A stretch of 64,000 nt of DNA from Planctomyces sp. SH-PL14 (lineage in GTDB: Bacteria; Planctomycetota; Planctomycetia; Planctomycetales; Planctomycetaceae). The DNA lies in the NCBI RefSeq assembly GCF_001610835.1, contig NZ_CP011270.1:496001-560000 (forward strand). The letters are read 5' to 3'. Under the pieces are notes generated by a model that worked only from the letters and a program-made list of their open reading frames with translations, did no database searches and was not told the DNA's origin. Positions 3,486 to 56,338 of this stretch are shown here, one piece after another (within the stretch, counting starts at the first letter, position 1; every line of letters starts with the position of its first letter). The position numbers were made by a program, and so were the translations under genes.

Positions 3486-5537
3486 CTATTTCGGCTCGTC
3501 CGCCGCAGTGGCCGGCTTCTCGTCAGCCTTCGGCTCCGGCTCCGGCTCCGGCTTCGTTTCGGCAGCGGGCTTCTCAGCGTCCGCCGCCGGCTTGTCTCCC
3601 TTGTCCGCGTCGCCTGCCGGCGGGGCCGGTTCGGCCGGCTTCCCGGCTTCAGGCTTGGCTTCCCCCTTCTCCGGGGCCTTCTCGGGCGCCTTCGCCTCAG
3701 CCGCCGGCTTGCCGTCGGCCGGGGCGTCGCCCTCCTCCTTCGCGGGTGCCATCGGCTTGATGCCGCCGGGAAGCGGAAGGCCGTCGAGCCCCGGGATGCT
3801 GGGGATCATCGGGGCGCCGCCGGCGGCGCCGGTCTGGGGCGCATCCTTGGGCTCGATCAGGTCGGCTCGGCGGGACCGAAGACCTTCGTAGACATCTTCC
3901 GCCACGACGTAGTACCAGTCCGCGAACCGGCCGTTGAGCTGGGCCGCCCGCTTCTTGCCGTCGGCGATCTTCTTCTCATAGCCCTTCTTCTGGGTCTCGT
4001 AGACCTCGTTGTTGAGCTCGTACTCCTTGAGGGCGACTTCGTACTTCTTCTGCGCCTCGTCCGCGGCAGCGTCCGGCTTCTTGGCGTCGGGCGCGTCGGT
4101 CTTGGGGGCGTCGTCCTTCTTCTCTTCGTCCTTCTTTTCCGTGTCGGCCTTGTCGGCCTCCTTCGCGGCATCGGCTGCGGCGGCGTCCTTGGCCGCCTCG
4201 GGCTTCGCCGGCGGTTCCGGCTTGACCGGCGGCTTCGGCTTGTCGCCGAGGAGCTTCTCGTCGAAACGGACCTGGATGAAGACGTAACGGCTCTTCGTCA
4301 GCTTGGAATCGTCATCCTTCTTTTCTTCGCCATCCTGATCCGCTTTCTTCTTGTCAGCGGGTTCCTTGTCGTCCCCCTCCGCCTTGGGGGCGTCGGTGGC
4401 CTTCTCGCCGTCCTTCTTCTCTTCCCCCTTGGCGGCGTCCGTCTTGGGAGCCTCGTCGGCCGGCTTCTTGGCGTCGCCGCCCGACTGGCCGACTTCGATC
4501 TCGACGTCGGTTCCCGAGAAGACGCTGCCGAACGACAGGTCGTAGGAAATCCCCTCAAAGGTTCCGACGGTGATGCTTCCCGAGACCGGGATGATCCCCT
4601 TCTGGAGAACGAAGCCCTTCGACTGCATGTCGAGCTGGACTTCGAACATCTGCGTCTGCGTCGCCTTGGGCTTCTCGCCGCGGAGCAGCGACGCGACGAG
4701 TTCCGGCTTACGTCGGACGCCGACGATCTTCAGGTCGTCGAGCGACTGGAGCATCTCGTTGACGACGCTCGCCTTGACCTTGTCCTTCGACTCGTCCAGT
4801 CCCGCCATGGTCCAGTCGGCGCCGGCGTCCTTGCGGCTGAGGTCGGAGACATCGGGCTCGGTCTGCTCGCCGGTCGTCAGGTCGATCTTGTAGCGGTTGA
4901 CGCTGATCTCCTCGACCTGCGACCGCTCGATCTGGAGCAGGTCCGGCTCGATCCACTCGGCGAACTTCGTCGAGATGTTGAACTTGCCGAGGTTCGCCCG
5001 GTAGTAGCGGGGCTCGTCCGCCTTGCGGATGTAGTACACGTCCTGGCCGACGTTCTCGACCTTCTTGCCGACGATGTAGTCGACGAGCACCTCGTCGCCG
5101 TTCTTGATTGTGATCCGCGTCCCGCGGCCGTCGGCCCCCGACACCGTCTCCGAGAGCGGGTCGAGGAGGTTATAGCGGCGGTGATCGTCGGCCGATTCGC
5201 CGACCTGGGCCTCGCGGCGGACGCCGACGACCGAGGCGGCCGTCTCGCGGAGGCGGTCCTTCCCGTCGGCCGGGTAGTTGTTGTGCGAGGGGATCCGCCA
5301 CTTGCCGTCCTTGAACTCGACCTTGAAGTCGTTCACGCGGGCGGTGTTGGCGTCATAGGCGGCGACCTGCAGCGACGTCGCCGCGTTCGGATCGCTGAAC
5401 GCGGGGAAGAACTCCTCCCCTTCGTCGCTGATCTTCTTGGTCAGGTCGACCTGGAACGAACGGTGCGTCGCAAACGCCGCAATCGTCGAAAAGCAGGCGA
5501 CGGCGACGAACAGGAGAGTCTTAATGGCAGGCTTCAT
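3486..5537 (-). CDS. DUF4340 domain protein of the Gld-type ABC cluster
   Basis: 683 residues with an N-terminal signal or anchor segment (about 5-25). A DUF4340-like region follows (about 60-360): repeated beta-rich segments with WRIPSHNNYPAD, VGQDVYYIRKAD and NISTKFAEWIEPDLL. The C-terminal 300 residues are strongly biased to Ala, Lys, Glu, Asp and Pro, interrupted by a short structured stretch (YEVALKEYELNNEVYETQKK). DUF4340 proteins accompany GldG-like ABC-2 systems and probably act at the periplasmic side; no enzymatic motif is visible. It is third in the cluster ATPase (8418-9158), GldFG fusion (5682-8357), DUF4340, all on the minus strand. The charged tail looks species-specific. Confidence 0.85.
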   Translation of the reverse strand: MKPAIKTLLFVAVACFSTIAAFATHRSFQVDLTKKISDEGEEFFPAFSDPNAATSLQVAAYDANTARVNDFKVEFKDGKWRIPSHNNYPADGKDRLRETAASVVGVRREAQVGESADDHRRYNLLDPLSETVSGADGRGTRITIKNGDEVLVDYIVGKKVENVGQDVYYIRKADEPRYYRANLGKFNISTKFAEWIEPDLLQIERSQVEEISVNRYKIDLTTGEQTEPDVSDLSRKDAGADWTMAGLDESKDKVKASVVNEMLQSLDDLKIVGVRRKPELVASLLRGEKPKATQTQMFEVQLDMQSKGFVLQKGIIPVSGSITVGTFEGISYDLSFGSVFSGTDVEIEVGQSGGDAKKPADEAPKTDAAKGEEKKDGEKATDAPKAEGDDKEPADKKKADQDGEEKKDDDSKLTKSRYVFIQVRFDEKLLGDKPKPPVKPEPPAKPEAAKDAAAADAAKEADKADTEKKDEEKKDDAPKTDAPDAKKPDAAADEAQKKYEVALKEYELNNEVYETQKKGYEKKIADGKKRAAQLNGRFADWYYVVAEDVYEGLRSRRADLIEPKDAPQTGAAGGAPMIPSIPGLDGLPLPGGIKPMAPAKEEGDAPADGKPAAEAKAPEKAPEKGEAKPEAGKPAEPAPPAGDADKGDKPAADAEKPAAETKPEPEPEPKADEKPATAADEPK

Positions 5538-5681
5538 GAGAAGGCCTCGAACGGACGGAGCGGTGAGCCTCGAGCAGTCAGCGAGTTGGTGCTGCGTGCG
5601 TGGGGCGGGCTCCTGGAAGTCGGTGAATGGGAACCAGTCAGGGCCGCCGCTTCTGCTGAGAGCGGCGGCCGAAACGCCTTG

Positions 5682-8357
5682 TTACCGCTGAACGAGTCGA
5701 TCGGAAGAAATCCCCCGGTTCTCGTCGAGGAGGCGGACCACCAGGACGAAGAGTCCCAGGAGCAGGGCCGGCAGTGGCGGGAGCAGGATCGCCCACAACT
5801 GGATCTGGCTCTGGATTCGCTGGACGTTCTCGTTGGCGTCGACCTGGGCGGTGCGGATTTCCGCGCTCTTGACCCGTTCGATCTCGGACTTCTCGAGGTC
5901 GAGGCGCCTCTGTTCGGCCGCCTGGCGGGTCATCTTGCGGATCTCCTTCTCGTCCGCCGAGAGCGACGCGTCCTTCTCGATCGACTCGACCGCCTTGTCG
6001 AGGCGGGACTGAGCCCCTTCGAGCTTCTCTTTCGCTTCCTTGTCCGCTTCCTTCATCCGCTCGCGGACTTCGGCGTCGAACTTCTCCCGCCGGCTTTCGA
6101 CGAGAGTCAGCACCCGCTGCTCGGGGCGGCGGCTGCGGAGCGGGGTGTAGTCCTTGACCCCCGCCAGGTCGTCGATGCAGTTCATCACGAAGACGACGTT
6201 GTCGAGCAGGAGGTCGGTCTCCTCTTCGATGAACCCGAACAGGCCGTCGTTCAGCATGTCGGCGTCGGCGATGAAGATCGCGTTCACCGGCGGATCGCCG
6301 TCCTTCGACTTGATCCGGGCTCCGACGACATGCCGCTCCCCGTCCGGGTTATAGCGGAGGTCGTTGTTGAGGGTCTCGCGGCCCAGGAAGTCGGTCTTGA
6401 AGATGTCGCCGTAGGCAACGTAACCGGACGTCTTGCGGCGGGTCTCGAGGAGCGGCGTGAATTCAAACTTGGAGCCGTTCTTCTTCTCGACTTCTCCAGC
6501 GAAGACCGCGACGACTTCCTGGAGCCCCTTTGTGACCGGGTCGGCCGCGTTGATCGGCGGGTCCTGCTTCCCGGTCCCCTTGGCCGTCATGAACAGGAAC
6601 GGCTTGGGCATCTCCGGGAACCGCGGATGCGGGTTGTATTCGTCGAACAGGACATCCGTGATCTGCCACTCGATGCCGAGGGCGTCGAGGAGCGAGGTCG
6701 CCTTGCCGCCGAACGCCTTGGGAGCCCCCGGAGGAGCCTGGAACCCCATCATGCCGCCGCCGGGCGAAGGTTTGGGCCGCGTCGGCGCGAGCTGCGGACC
6801 GACCCAGATCGGGGCCGGGTCGTCGAAGATCAGGGCGGGACCACCCGCCTGGATGTAGTCGACGAGGTTCTTCATCTCCGGCTCGGTCAGCGACGACGGC
6901 ATGATCGCGAGCAGGACATTGAATGCGTCCTTCTTGATCGGCTCGTTCGGGCTGACCTTGACGATCTCATACTGCTTCTTGAGCTCCTGGACGAGCTTCC
7001 ACTCCGGATCGGGGGTGAACGTCTGCATGTTCATCCCGCCGCCGGCCACCTTGGCATCGGTCTCCAGGACGCCGATCTTCATCCGCTCCTGCTTCGAGAC
7101 CGTGCCGACCGCGCGGGTCATCTCGTACTCGATCGGCGTCCCGCGGGCGAAGTAGGGAATGACGACCTGGTCATACCCGCTCGTGGCGACGAGCCCGAGG
7201 AACACGTCTTCCTGCGAGATCCGTCCGCCCGCCTGCGACACGACGCGGCGCGAGGTAATTCCCCACTTGGCGGCCTGTTCCGCTTCCTTCGAGAGCGGAT
7301 CGACATCGACCACGCGGGCGCTCAGCCGCTTGCCGCCGGCCCGGCCGAACTGCCGCATCAGCCCGAGCAGCTTCTTCCGAACGGGGACGTAGGACTCGGG
7401 AACGGTCTTGCTGACGTAGGCGGTCAGCGTGATCGGCTTCTCAGCCGGAACCGCCTTCAGGACTTTCTCCGTCGCGTTGGAGAGCGAATAGAGACGTTCG
7501 CCGGTCAGATCGATATCGAACCCGAACTGCCCGGTCACCAGGGCGATCGCGTAGGTCGCGGTCACGGCGGTGACGGTGAGGCTCAGGGCCCGCAGAAGGT
7601 ACTGCAGCCCCTGCTGCTTGCTCTCGGGGGAGCCGGCCCAGTGCCGGCGGGCGACCATCACGGCGTTGAGATACAGAAAGACCACTACGATCCCGACGAA
7701 GTACGCCACGCCGCCGATCGGAATGAGCCCCAGGGTGAAGTCGCCGAGGCGGCCCGGAATGCTGACCGGCTCACGGATGTTGAGCCACGCGAGCAGGCCG
7801 ATCAGGCCGGGAATCCGGTCGAGGAAGACCGGGACGGCGCACATCGCCGCCCCCAGGACGAAGGCGACCGTGGCACTGCTTGTGAGAGTCGAGGAGAACA
7901 TCCCGATCGACAGGAGCGCGGCCCCTGTCAGCCAGTAGCCGAAGAAGGTCGAGACGAGCATCCCCCAGTCCGGGGAGCCCAGGATCTCCAGCACGATGAC
8001 GTGAGTCAGCGAGAAGCCCAGGGTCAGCGTGTACACCGCCAGGACGGCGAAGTACTTGCCGAGGATCACCTCCCAGTCGGTCGCTGGGAGCGTGAAGAGC
8101 AACTCGTCCGTCCCCTGCTTCCGCTCGTCCGCCCACACGCTCATCGTAATGGCGGGGATGATGAACAGGAGCAGATAGGGGAAATACGCGCTGAGCTGGT
8201 CGAGATCGCACTGGTTGTTCGTGAAGAACTGGTCGTTGTACGCGACGAACGACCCGGCGATCACGAACACGATCATGAACAGGTAGCCCAGCATTCCGGA
8301 GAAATAGCTGGACACGTTCCGCTTGAAGATGGCGAGCGTGACGTGGGAACGAAGCAT
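5682..8357 (-). CDS. ABC-2 permease/GldG fusion protein
   Basis: An 891-residue fusion. Residues 1-245 are an ABC-2 type permease (GldF-like) with about six membrane segments and the WADERKQGTDELLFTLP motif typical of this branch. A further membrane segment near 255-280 leads into a GldG-like extracytoplasmic domain (about 280-700), which carries the DLTGERLYSLS stretch. After a coiled-coil region (about 740-850) a C-terminal membrane helix (LLPPLPALLLGLFVLVVRLL) and a cytoplasmic tail follow. In Bacteroidetes GldF and GldG are separate gliding/secretion components; the one-chain form is common in planctomycetes, where the cargo is unknown. The ATPase partner is encoded 60 nt upstream. Confidence 0.9.
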   Translation of the reverse strand: MLRSHVTLAIFKRNVSSYFSGMLGYLFMIVFVIAGSFVAYNDQFFTNNQCDLDQLSAYFPYLLLFIIPAITMSVWADERKQGTDELLFTLPATDWEVILGKYFAVLAVYTLTLGFSLTHVIVLEILGSPDWGMLVSTFFGYWLTGAALLSIGMFSSTLTSSATVAFVLGAAMCAVPVFLDRIPGLIGLLAWLNIREPVSIPGRLGDFTLGLIPIGGVAYFVGIVVVFLYLNAVMVARRHWAGSPESKQQGLQYLLRALSLTVTAVTATYAIALVTGQFGFDIDLTGERLYSLSNATEKVLKAVPAEKPITLTAYVSKTVPESYVPVRKKLLGLMRQFGRAGGKRLSARVVDVDPLSKEAEQAAKWGITSRRVVSQAGGRISQEDVFLGLVATSGYDQVVIPYFARGTPIEYEMTRAVGTVSKQERMKIGVLETDAKVAGGGMNMQTFTPDPEWKLVQELKKQYEIVKVSPNEPIKKDAFNVLLAIMPSSLTEPEMKNLVDYIQAGGPALIFDDPAPIWVGPQLAPTRPKPSPGGGMMGFQAPPGAPKAFGGKATSLLDALGIEWQITDVLFDEYNPHPRFPEMPKPFLFMTAKGTGKQDPPINAADPVTKGLQEVVAVFAGEVEKKNGSKFEFTPLLETRRKTSGYVAYGDIFKTDFLGRETLNNDLRYNPDGERHVVGARIKSKDGDPPVNAIFIADADMLNDGLFGFIEEETDLLLDNVVFVMNCIDDLAGVKDYTPLRSRRPEQRVLTLVESRREKFDAEVRERMKEADKEAKEKLEGAQSRLDKAVESIEKDASLSADEKEIRKMTRQAAEQRRLDLEKSEIERVKSAEIRTAQVDANENVQRIQSQIQLWAILLPPLPALLLGLFVLVVRLLDENRGISSDRLVQR

Positions 8358-52787: not shown

Positions 52788-52829
52788 CCACGCCCTTTCG
52801 GAGTACCTACAGGGCGTGCCACCCGACCC
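52788..52829 (+). repeat. Palindromic repeat X, copy 3
   Basis: CCACGCCCTTTCGGAGTACC then TACAGGGCGTGCCACCCGAC. The arms CACGCCCT and AGGGCGTG pair perfectly. Confidence 0.75.
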
Positions 52830-52942
52830 GGAGCAACAGACCTTTCATCCCCATCTGCTGGCAGCTTTGGGCCAGCAGTGATTGGACGTCCAACTCGAAC
52901 TCGGCACTGCTCGTCAAAGCACGAGCAGTGGCACCCGGCGTG
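52828..52942 (+). repeat. 115-bp direct repeat Y, copy 1
   Basis: Starts CCGGAGCAACAGA and ends GCACCCGGCGTG. It contains the perfect hairpin CACTGCTCGT-CAAAGC-ACGAGCAGTG. The second copy, at 53030-53144, differs at three positions by eye. Confidence 0.92.
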
Positions 52943-53029
52943 ATAGTCGAGTCCCAGGTAAACACGTACGATCTCCATGTCTGTTGCTCCTGGTCTTGTG
53001 ATTGAACCCACCCGGCATCGTAGCCGGGA

Positions 53030-53144
53030 CCGGAGCAACAGATCTTTCATCCCCATCTGCTGGCAGCCTTGGGCCAGCAGTGATTGGAGGTCCAACTCGA
53101 ACTCGGCACTGCTCGTCAAAGCACGAGCAGTGGCACCCGGCGTG
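53030..53144 (+). repeat. 115-bp direct repeat Y, copy 2
   Basis: Direct repeat of 52828-52942 with three substitutions; the 10-bp hairpin stem is unchanged. An 87-bp unrelated spacer separates the copies. Confidence 0.92.
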
Positions 53145-53175
53145 CCACCCGATCCGACGGACGCTGGAACGCTCG

Positions 53176-53217
53176 CCACGCCCTTCCGGAGTACCTACAG
53201 GACGTGCCACCCGACCG
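53176..53217 (+). repeat. Palindromic repeat X, copy 4
   Basis: CCACGCCCTTCCGGAGTACC then TACAGGACGTGCCACCCGAC, near-identical to copy 3. It ends 18 bases before the stop codon of the convergent cyclase gene. Confidence 0.75.
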
Positions 53218-53234: not shown

Positions 53235-54311
53235 CTAAACGATTTCGAAAAGTCTGTAGATTCCCGGGATATTCTTTATGTCATTGATCTCACCCGCCGG
53301 TCCCGTCTTCACGGAATGAGACGTCCTCCCCTCCGTGGACTGAGACATCAAAATTTGCCCTCCCTGAGATCTTCCCTCAATTCGAGCGGCGAAGTTCACG
53401 TGTGGCCCCAGCGCAGTGAACTGGTCGCGAAACTCCGTTCCGACGCTCCCGACAAGAGCGCTCCCCGTGTGAATGCCACAACCCAATCCAATTCTAATAT
53501 CCTGAGGCGAATACAACTTCCAATCTACCATCCACCTATCACGCAATTCAACAAACGCCAATCTAAACTGCTGTGCCGCGTGACACGCGGCGACGGCCTC
53601 CTCCCGGCCATCCCTCGAATGCGGCGGAAGAGCACCGAATAACGCCATCACTCCATCGCCGATGAACTTATCAAGAACACCCCCATTCGAAAACACAATC
53701 TTAGCCGCAATATCGCAGTACTCTTTCAGAAAACCTGCTATCAGTGTCGGATGAGCCTTGAGGATTTCGCACAGCAACGAAAACCCCCGTATATCCCAAA
53801 AGACAATCGTGACGACTCTCTCAGATAACGCGAGCAATGATGGGTCCCGGTCGATTGCTCCGTACAATGTTCTATCAAAGTACCGTTGTGTCATCGCCAC
53901 CTTCCGTGACCACTCGCGGTAGCGAAGAGCAGCCCTGGCCTTGATATTAATCTCTTTAGCCGCAATCACCCCGCGTATATTCTTCTCTACAACGTCAAAG
54001 GCCCCGACGTCGAAGGCGGCGTACCGGTCGAGACTTTTCTCTTTTGCCGTGAATAGAATCGCCATAACATGCGGGTCAATCTCCCTTGCCCGCTGCAGCA
54101 TAGTCATGCCGCTCGCTTCCGATTTCATCACTAGGTCGGTAAGCACAACATCGATTGGTGACGTTGTGCCCACATGCTGTAGAAGCAGTGCTTCCCCTTC
54201 GTGTTCATTGGCGGCGACAACAAACTCCCACGCTGGATTCTCGTCTCCAAGTGCGCGGACCATTGCCTCTCGGTTGTGGACTTCATCATCAACGACCAGG
54301 ATTTTTGCCAT
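53235..54311 (-). CDS. Response regulator with class III nucleotide cyclase domain
   Basis: 358 residues. The receiver domain (1-125) has acidic pocket Asp8/Asp9, phospho-acceptor Asp59 in VVLTDL, Thr88 in ILFTAK and Lys110. A helical linker (115-165) leads to a class III adenylate/guanylate cyclase domain (166-355). Its metal-binding Asp173 (FWDIRGF) and Asp219 (FIGDGVMALFG), the purine-selecting pair Lys215 and Thr299, and transition-state residues Asn306 and Arg310 (VNFAARIE) are all present, so it should be active; the Lys/Thr pair favours ATP. It is encoded two bases after the histidine kinase stop. The receiver plus cyclase order matches the output half of cyanobacterial CyaC. The gene is visibly AT-richer than its surroundings. 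Confidence 0.92.
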   Translation of the reverse strand: MAKILVVDDEVHNREAMVRALGDENPAWEFVVAANEHEGEALLLQHVGTTSPIDVVLTDLVMKSEASGMTMLQRAREIDPHVMAILFTAKEKSLDRYAAFDVGAFDVVEKNIRGVIAAKEINIKARAALRYREWSRKVAMTQRYFDRTLYGAIDRDPSLLALSERVVTIVFWDIRGFSLLCEILKAHPTLIAGFLKEYCDIAAKIVFSNGGVLDKFIGDGVMALFGALPPHSRDGREEAVAACHAAQQFRLAFVELRDRWMVDWKLYSPQDIRIGLGCGIHTGSALVGSVGTEFRDQFTALGPHVNFAARIEGRSQGGQILMSQSTEGRTSHSVKTGPAGEINDIKNIPGIYRLFEIV

Positions 54312-54313
54312 AA

Positions 54314-56125
54314 TTACGAAGGCTTTCGTGTTTGCGAGCCAGAGTCAACTTTGTTGTATGGAAGATATATTTCAAACGTCGCCCCTTTGCCGTGCAATCC
54401 TACCTCGCGAATCGCTCCGCCATGCCCCTCAATGATTCGCCTGACCAGCGCAAGCCCGAGTCCGGTTCCGTGGTCATACGTCGTAAAGAATGCTTCGAAT
54501 ATCTGCTCCTTCAGATGAGGTTCAACCCCCGCGCCATTGTCAGAAAACTTGATGAGAACATACGCCCCTTTCGGGTCGACAAAAGAAGGAACTTGCTCTG
54601 CTGGGACGATCGACGCTTCGATCTCGATGACTCGCACCACTTCAGCCATCCAGTGAAGCGAATTTGCGGCCAGCTCATCCAAGACTTCTGCGATCCGCTC
54701 CGGATCGGCAAAAACCAACAGCTCAGGAGAGCAATCGATCTTGCAGTTAACACCTCGCGACCTGAGAGAGTGGCACGCGTCCTCAAGCAAAGGAAGCAGC
54801 GCTGTCTGGATTGGCGAAATGTGTTGAGCCCTCGCCAACGACTTGAATTGATCAACGATACTCTTCGCCTTTTCGACGGCACCTCTCATATTCACGACAA
54901 CTGATATGGCTTCCGCCTCGCGGTGCTCCTCTATTCTTTTTTGGAGCGGAGCTAGATCAGTCTCAATTGCAAATATAGGATTTCCTATTTTGTGCGCGGC
55001 TGAAAACGAAATATCCTTCCATATGGCGTCACGTTCGGCGCGAATGCGCAAACTCTTTTCTCGCTCTAGAGCACTGTTGGTGATTGCGAGGCGCTCAACG
55101 AGATCGACATTTTCGCGATATAATTCCTCAGGCCCCTTTCGGAACTTAGCTAGTGATCGCGCCTCATCCGAAAAGTACTTAAACCCGAGTTGCGGGAACT
55201 GCTGGACTAGCCGCGTCATGTAGTCGCGATCCCACACGCGAACTCTCACCGCCGTCGATGGATAACGTTTTGACCTTAGAAAGTGCCGTTCGTGTCTCTG
55301 CAGCAGGCCATCTTCTATGAATTCGTTCTTCAGAACAATTAAGAGGAGCGTCAGGGACGAGTCTTCCCGCCTACCCGGCCGAAGGCGATCGTCGATGTCA
55401 TGACCCCGACGGAGTTGGTAAAGGACTCGGTCTGGATCCCCATAAATCATCTCCAGAGCCTGTTCGGGCGGCATGCTTCTGCCGAGAGAGATCAGCCATT
55501 GCTCCAAATACTCGAAACCGTCGGGGTCCTTCTTGGGAAGCTCAGCAAGTAAATCGAACTCGGCAGACTCGCGATACCACTCAATTCGACGGAAGCCCAT
55601 TTGGGCAATCAGCTCGCGGCAGAGGTTTTCGATGTCTTCCGTCGCCAGGATATCCCAATTAACAAAAAATGGCGTTGACAGGCTGGCCGGTATCGGCAAT
55701 CGAACTCGTCCGGCGCCGGTGCGAACTGATCGGAGCCAACTGTGTACCAGAGAGACAAGATCTGCACGGCCTTCTGCTGTGCTCTTATACACATAGAGGG
55801 GCGACGATCTCAGCTCATTGGGAAGCTGGCGAGAATAATCGTCGCGAACTAATACTAAAGTGGGCTTCCCCATGGCCATAGATTGGCCTATTTGGAAGAA
55901 AATCCCACCATCAGAAGAAGAGATATCAGCGATTATACAATCGGAACTCGCTATCTCGGCAATAGGACTATCTGCGGGATTTCGCTGGAAATATTCCTCA
56001 TCGATAGGGGTAAACTGCTGATTTCTGCATGCTTTTTTGAGACTATCGAAGAGCTCTTCAAACGCTGGCAAGTATGGGATGGCGAGGAAGCATTGTCTTT
56101 TCGGCGATTCTTTTTTTTTGGCCAT
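54314..56125 (-). CDS. Histidine kinase with TIR/NDT-like N-terminus and possible Mrr-like domain
   Basis: 603 residues. Residues 10-96 resemble the TIR-like or nucleoside-deoxyribosyltransferase-like fold: CFLAIPY, then SDCIIADISSSDGGIFFQIG and GKPTLVLV. The position normally a catalytic Glu (VFYELG in relatives) is Gln78. Residues 155-320 (IENLCRELIAQMGFRRIEW, EFDLLAELP, VRVWDRDYMTRLVQQFPQLG) may be a degenerate Mrr-like or other alpha/beta domain; this is low confidence. A coiled coil (335-370) leads to the kinase: H box AAHKIGNP with His378, N box Asn488, G1 DNGAG, F box and G2 GTGLGLAL. It has no membrane helix, so it is a cytoplasmic sensor. The start is the ATG of MAKKKESPK; a GTG at 56140 is an alternative. 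The receiver-cyclase is two bases downstream. Confidence 0.85.
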   Translation of the reverse strand: MAKKKESPKRQCFLAIPYLPAFEELFDSLKKACRNQQFTPIDEEYFQRNPADSPIAEIASSDCIIADISSSDGGIFFQIGQSMAMGKPTLVLVRDDYSRQLPNELRSSPLYVYKSTAEGRADLVSLVHSWLRSVRTGAGRVRLPIPASLSTPFFVNWDILATEDIENLCRELIAQMGFRRIEWYRESAEFDLLAELPKKDPDGFEYLEQWLISLGRSMPPEQALEMIYGDPDRVLYQLRRGHDIDDRLRPGRREDSSLTLLLIVLKNEFIEDGLLQRHERHFLRSKRYPSTAVRVRVWDRDYMTRLVQQFPQLGFKYFSDEARSLAKFRKGPEELYRENVDLVERLAITNSALEREKSLRIRAERDAIWKDISFSAAHKIGNPIFAIETDLAPLQKRIEEHREAEAISVVVNMRGAVEKAKSIVDQFKSLARAQHISPIQTALLPLLEDACHSLRSRGVNCKIDCSPELLVFADPERIAEVLDELAANSLHWMAEVVRVIEIEASIVPAEQVPSFVDPKGAYVLIKFSDNGAGVEPHLKEQIFEAFFTTYDHGTGLGLALVRRIIEGHGGAIREVGLHGKGATFEIYLPYNKVDSGSQTRKPS

Positions 56126-56274
56126 GTGCTCGTGGTCCACAGATGTAAGTCACGAATGTGAGATTCACACGCCGGAAGAGGTTTATGACATGGCCTTTCT
56201 ACACGCGGAGTGAACACCGCGTGGCAACGCGAGCCCGCCCACGTCTCCTAGTTTCCAACGGTGAAATGGTGACA

Positions 56275-56312
56275 AAATGAAATACTCCTTGCAACAACGG
56301 TGTCGCAAGGAG
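56275..56312 (-). terminator. Intrinsic terminator of nrdJ
   Basis: Stem CTCCTTGC / GCAAGGAG (56285-56292 and 56305-56312) with a 12-nt loop, followed on the minus strand by TATTTCATTTTG. It lies 26 nt past the nrdJ stop. Confidence 0.75.
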
Positions 56313-56338
56313 CGCAGGTCACGGCTGATACACGAGTG

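Follow-up and report, generated by a model that had tools for sequence, protein, structure and literature searches.

Among described systems, operons carried on rhizobial plasmids are close in layout to the locus considered here, since in these a histidine kinase, a CheY protein and a receiver-adenylate cyclase are encoded together and the kinase likewise adjoins a receiver-cyclase protein. Because such operons exist, the output half of the present system is not new; its cyclase is nonetheless only 27-30% identical to the rhizobial ones, which have an extra single-domain receiver gene in between and occupy a different genomic setting. The closest solved relative of the cyclase is Spirulina CyaC (1wc0, 9.9e-25), which it resembles in the catalytic domain, the metal-binding Asp residues, the substrate Lys and Thr and the transition-state Asn and Arg, whereas here one receiver domain precedes the cyclase and the protein is paired with a separate, predicted soluble kinase. 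A class III cyclase domain is also shared with Pycsar PycC (PADLOC, 3e-20), in which pyrimidine specificity is associated with Y50, D94 and R97 of BcPycC or F100, R142 and Q144 of EaPycC (PMC11224242); the present cyclase differs in its receiver, its CyaC-like substrate residues and in having no adjacent effector that could be seen. On the input side, DNPH1/Rcl, MilB and the nucleoside 2-deoxyribosyltransferases (NDTs; PF05014) resemble residues 13-143 of the kinase in modelled fold and profile. Human DNPH1 relies on Glu E104 and Asp D80 for catalysis, and the inactivating mutation E104Q leaves a protein that binds its substrate without cutting it (PMC10603095). Mrr-type restriction endonuclease domains (PF04471) may share with the middle domain of the kinase an FE-like Glu helix followed by Asp, as well as the predicted order of helices and strands, with match scores that are weak. 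Among open-licence papers, none was found that describes a kinase of this architecture.

The locus lies in the window, a 64,000-nucleotide stretch of Planctomyces sp. SH-PL14 (contig NZ_CP011270.1, positions 496,001 to 560,000), and consists of two minus-strand genes separated by 2 nt between kinase stop and cyclase start, a spacing and shared orientation that the first-pass annotation had read correctly without giving the strand. The upstream gene (54314-56140) encodes a sensor histidine kinase of 608 aa (HATPase_c 6.6e-16, together with motifs) with a GTG start and an alternative in-frame ATG at residue 6, and the downstream gene (53235-54311, ATG start) encodes a response regulator of 358 aa with a receiver (Response_reg 3e-14) and a class III nucleotidyl cyclase domain (Guanylate_cyc 1.6e-15). 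The module had been described as AT-richer, and computation agrees: with a GC content of 0.519 the pair falls below both the window (0.644) and the 5-kb flanks (0.618 and 0.633), rather than matching the genome average. None of 611 sliding 2.9-kb windows along the 64-kb stretch is as GC-poor as the pair, the minimum elsewhere being 0.608, and the departure is sharper still at third codon positions, where GC3 is 0.55 and 0.58 in the pair and 0.78-0.90 in the genes for GDSL, GlyRS and nrdJ.

The repeats noted to the left of the module are real, and include a 115-nt direct repeat with 97% identity (52828-52942 and 53030-53144) with further repeats nearby. Pieces of the interval 52788-53216, including part of the 115-nt repeat, occur at 18 other places in the genome with 78-97% identity, so that these repeats belong in part to a dispersed family of this genome and are not specific to the module. 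No tRNA that could have served as an integration site is present in the 40-64 kb part of the window. On the other side, an inverted repeat, CCTTGC...GCAAGG (56291-56314), is located downstream of nrdJ and, as read by eye, is a possible terminator between that gene and the pair. A functional link between nrdJ and the pair was considered and dropped, as nrdJ does not adjoin the pair at other loci.

A single scan of species genomes recovered full-length pairs in four distant metagenome-assembled genomes (MAGs), representing two acidobacterial lineages, Coatesbacteria and a further planctomycete. At each of the five loci the order is kinase then cyclase with the genes nearly touching; the relatives' cyclases are 58-63% identical to that of the window, and the three kinases aligned in full are 37-46% identical. 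No two loci share their flanking genes, which are ribonucleotide reductase in the window and, elsewhere, FMN-binding, HEAT and amidohydrolase proteins, a hydroxyacid dehydrogenase with a GAF protein, a Lon protease, or a CYTH protein. The last of these (L012, 7151-8101, minus strand) is divergent beside the kinase, the longest frames of the two overlapping, and is possibly a relative of class IV cyclases. GC content of the pair is below that of its flanks at all five loci, with a difference of only 3 points at L011. The L011 kinase is split in its MAG over two overlapping frames (4344-6271) and was left unmended; the frameshift may reflect decay of the system or an assembly error.

The family is also rare. 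Among sampled genomes, and with copies elsewhere possible, the middle domain of the kinase was detected once among 392 planctomycetes, once among 396 acidobacteria, once among 4 genomes of the Coatesbacteria phylum and once among 45 genomes of the order to which the other planctomycete belongs. An initial search of 58 relatives returned, outside the genome itself, only ordinary kinase-core matches to the kinase, and at E<=1e-40 the cyclase subfamily comprised, across 788 genomes, the pair's own cyclase and one much weaker, distant match; the cyclase subfamily is thus tied to the kinase in its distribution. Among viral contigs, neither the kinase nor its middle domain found a relative, and the cyclase found only matches of 29-36%, almost all of which were limited to the catalytic domain. 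Class III cyclase domains of a different subfamily are matched in several viral contigs (L054-L068), and are annotated, again from a different subfamily, in phage records of Pelagibacter, Methylophilales and Acinetobacter. Kinase matches reached 80% query coverage in no plasmid record, the best-ranked, from Gloeothece, being rejected as an ordinary PAS kinase, and PHROGs yielded only a weak unnamed match. The two genes act as one unit, with the distribution of a horizontally moved element; low GC, sporadic occurrence and unrelated neighbours all uphold the earlier suggestion of horizontal acquisition, and syntenic pairs in all close relatives were not observed.

At the N-terminus of the kinase, residues 13-143 (55712-56104) are predicted to form a Rossmann-type domain whose profile matches DNPH1; the match to Nuc_deoxyrib_tr, at 6.5e-05, is below the curated cut-off. 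In models of moderate confidence (mean pLDDT 68-70, built from 4-5 sequences, the five-relative model reaching 70), the best structural match is human DNPH1 (123 residues at 2.2 A, Z 14.4); MilB follows closely and TIR domains score around Z 12, and a PADLOC TIR model matches this domain weakly. The first-pass annotation had called this front end TIR/NDT-like, of which the NDT-like fold stands while the resemblance is closest to DNPH1, MilB and NDT rather than to TIR, and structure prediction did not produce an ordinary PAS or GAF sensor in this position. A profile alignment places the catalytic Glu of DNPH1 at Q83, in a column occupied by Q, A, E, D and Q in the five members, such that four of the five lack the Glu of the DNPH1/NDT enzymes, to which this domain, fused here to a histidine kinase, is otherwise similar. 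The column of the catalytic Asp reads P, A, V, I and a gap, with no acidic residue, in an alignment that spans a loop here and could be out of register by one or two positions. The member L010 keeps the Glu, while L011 has Asp in its place. These residues suggest that the N-terminal domain is probably a pseudoenzyme. Given the degenerate catalytic columns, and the finding that E104Q of human DNPH1 binds without cutting, a role as a binding domain is favoured, with L010 a possible exception; members that keep the Glu, such as L010, may be active.

The middle domain (residues 158-331; 55148-55669), of which the assignment is less certain, is weakly Mrr/PD-(D/E)XK-like, as judged by profile, hhalign and model. 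Mrr_cat matched two of the five members, at best with 0.025. When compared by hhalign with eight Mrr domains from related genomes, the domain gave P 0.0021, with a probability of only 13% and over the first 35 columns, a stretch that covers the first helix and first catalytic Asp, with an FE-like Glu in the helix and D thereafter. The predicted order, alpha-beta-beta-beta-alpha, fits a PD-(D/E)XK core. D196 is invariant and position 213 is E or D; in all five members, W215 occupies the position at which Lys is expected, and the Mrr signature D...(E/Q)xK is accordingly incomplete. A sequence search of this domain against solved structures returned no match, and the structure-search matches listed for the kinase model are to the first domain. 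Because the catalytic Lys is replaced by Trp, the domain, if it does adopt the PD-(D/E)XK fold, is probably not a nuclease; the proposal of a second, nuclease-like domain survives as a weak likeness to Mrr domains that lacks the catalytic lysine. Taken together, the loss of the N-terminal carboxylates in most members and the absence of the middle-domain lysine indicate that both front domains are probably sensors rather than weapons.

The residues of the phosphorelay and of the cyclase are intact. The coiled linker, DHp and ATPase domains (residues 332-598; 54347-55147), assigned by profile and model, retain the conserved H383, N493, G1 (D534, G536, G538), F-box (F548, F551) and G2 (G558, G560) motifs, and the receiver has D9, D59, T88 and K110, the last three of which are conserved; D8 is Gly in L011. 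By hydropathy the kinase shows no evident membrane-helix stretch (highest 19-residue Kyte-Doolittle mean 1.2), and it is predicted to be soluble; the corresponding maximum in the cyclase, 1.65, falls inside the catalytic core. D173, K215, D219, T299, N306 and R310 of the cyclase are invariant in the five members and supply the class III adenylyl cyclase signature of two metal-binding Asp residues, substrate Lys and Thr, and transition-state Asn and Arg. The earlier description of a membrane-free kinase with all of its boxes, and of a cyclase with every catalytic residue, is therefore accurate, and the residues of kinase, receiver and cyclase together predict a complete phosphorelay. In class III cyclases, substrate Lys and Thr go with ATP. 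As both K215 and T299 have identical counterparts in the alignment with Spirulina CyaC, the product is most likely cAMP, and the cGMP that had been offered as an alternative is less favoured. The five host genomes each contain 1-11 matches to the cNMP-binding family, but no such gene was noticed next to the pair; the cyclic nucleotide is therefore presumably read by receptors resident in the host.

A comparison of the five members by domain demonstrates that divergence falls from input to output: identity is 15-33% in the first domain, 35-53% in the middle domain, 46-58% in the kinase core, 57-74% in the receiver and 56-68% in the cyclase. Such a gradient fits a constant output coupled to a shifting input, although a dead domain under relaxed constraint would give the same picture.

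The reading that we prefer, with a probability of roughly 0.6, is that the pair constitutes a horizontally transferred cytosolic two-component system in which a pseudoenzyme front binds a nucleotide and/or nucleic acid and thereby changes cAMP. The pair itself, its conservation and horizontal pattern, the intact relay and cyclase residues, the modelled fold of the first domain and the lost catalytic residues were observed; what kind of ligand is bound, in which direction control runs, whether phosphate is transferred, that cAMP is the product and which receptor reads it are inferred, as follows. The DNPH1/NDT-like and Mrr-like domains would form a ligand-binding input, the ligand most likely being a nucleotide and/or nucleic-acid species, and binding would be relayed through the coiled helix to the DHp/ATPase core. 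H383 would then be autophosphorylated and the phosphate passed to D59 of the partner receiver, the phosphorylation of which would change the activity of the attached class III cyclase, and its product, most likely cAMP, would be read by cyclic-nucleotide receptors already present in the host.

A tentative alternative, which has the strongest claim after the preferred reading, is that the pair is a mobile but ordinary metabolic or stress two-component system whose front domain binds a common metabolite (e.g., a nucleoside monophosphate) and tunes cAMP to nutrients. Support for such a role can be found in the rhizobial plasmid operons of kinase, receiver and receiver-cyclase, one of which adjoins substrate-binding proteins, and in the housekeeping-type genes scanned at the five loci; the kinase has no membrane or PAS/GAF sensor, however, and extreme rarity with a horizontal pattern is atypical of housekeeping control. 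Rather less probable is anti-phage signalling of the Pycsar kind, in which phage-altered nucleotides or DNA ends would be the cue for the kinase, and growth arrest would be brought about by the cyclic nucleotide. The cyclase matches the PADLOC PycC model PDLC00734, but PycC models are class III cyclases able to match any relative, and here the two substrate residues resemble those of CyaC. Defence systems repeatedly use NDT-like and TIR-like folds, as in the accessory protein of retron Eco1 (PMC8989520), and the sporadic, GC-offset distribution and fast-diverging input domain would suit such a role; against it, no copy was found in viral contigs and none at full length on plasmids. Defence was assessed by family models and by gene neighbourhood; at none of the five loci did the open frames read or the neighbours scanned include a defence gene or a dedicated effector with a cyclic-nucleotide domain, and the anti-phage role at which the first-pass annotation hinted is thus unsupported by its surroundings. 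A more specific version, in which two retired enzyme folds of a two-component immune sensor, one suited to nucleotides and the other to DNA ends, detect phage-modified nucleotides or broken DNA in the cytosol and cAMP serves as the alarm, is doubtful. Least probable is that the N-terminal domain is an active glycosidase (of NAD, dNMP or a modified nucleotide) under kinase control, an effector rather than a sensor, for while related folds are such enzymes and L010 and L011 have acidic residues in the Glu column, three of the five members have Q or A there and the Asp column is without an acidic residue.

Should the system work as proposed in the preferred reading, that of a pseudoenzyme-fronted cytosolic sensor, the known inputs of two-component cyclases would be extended to nucleotides or nucleic acids sensed inside the cell, and the pair would offer a small, portable module for direct tests of sensing by pseudoenzymes.
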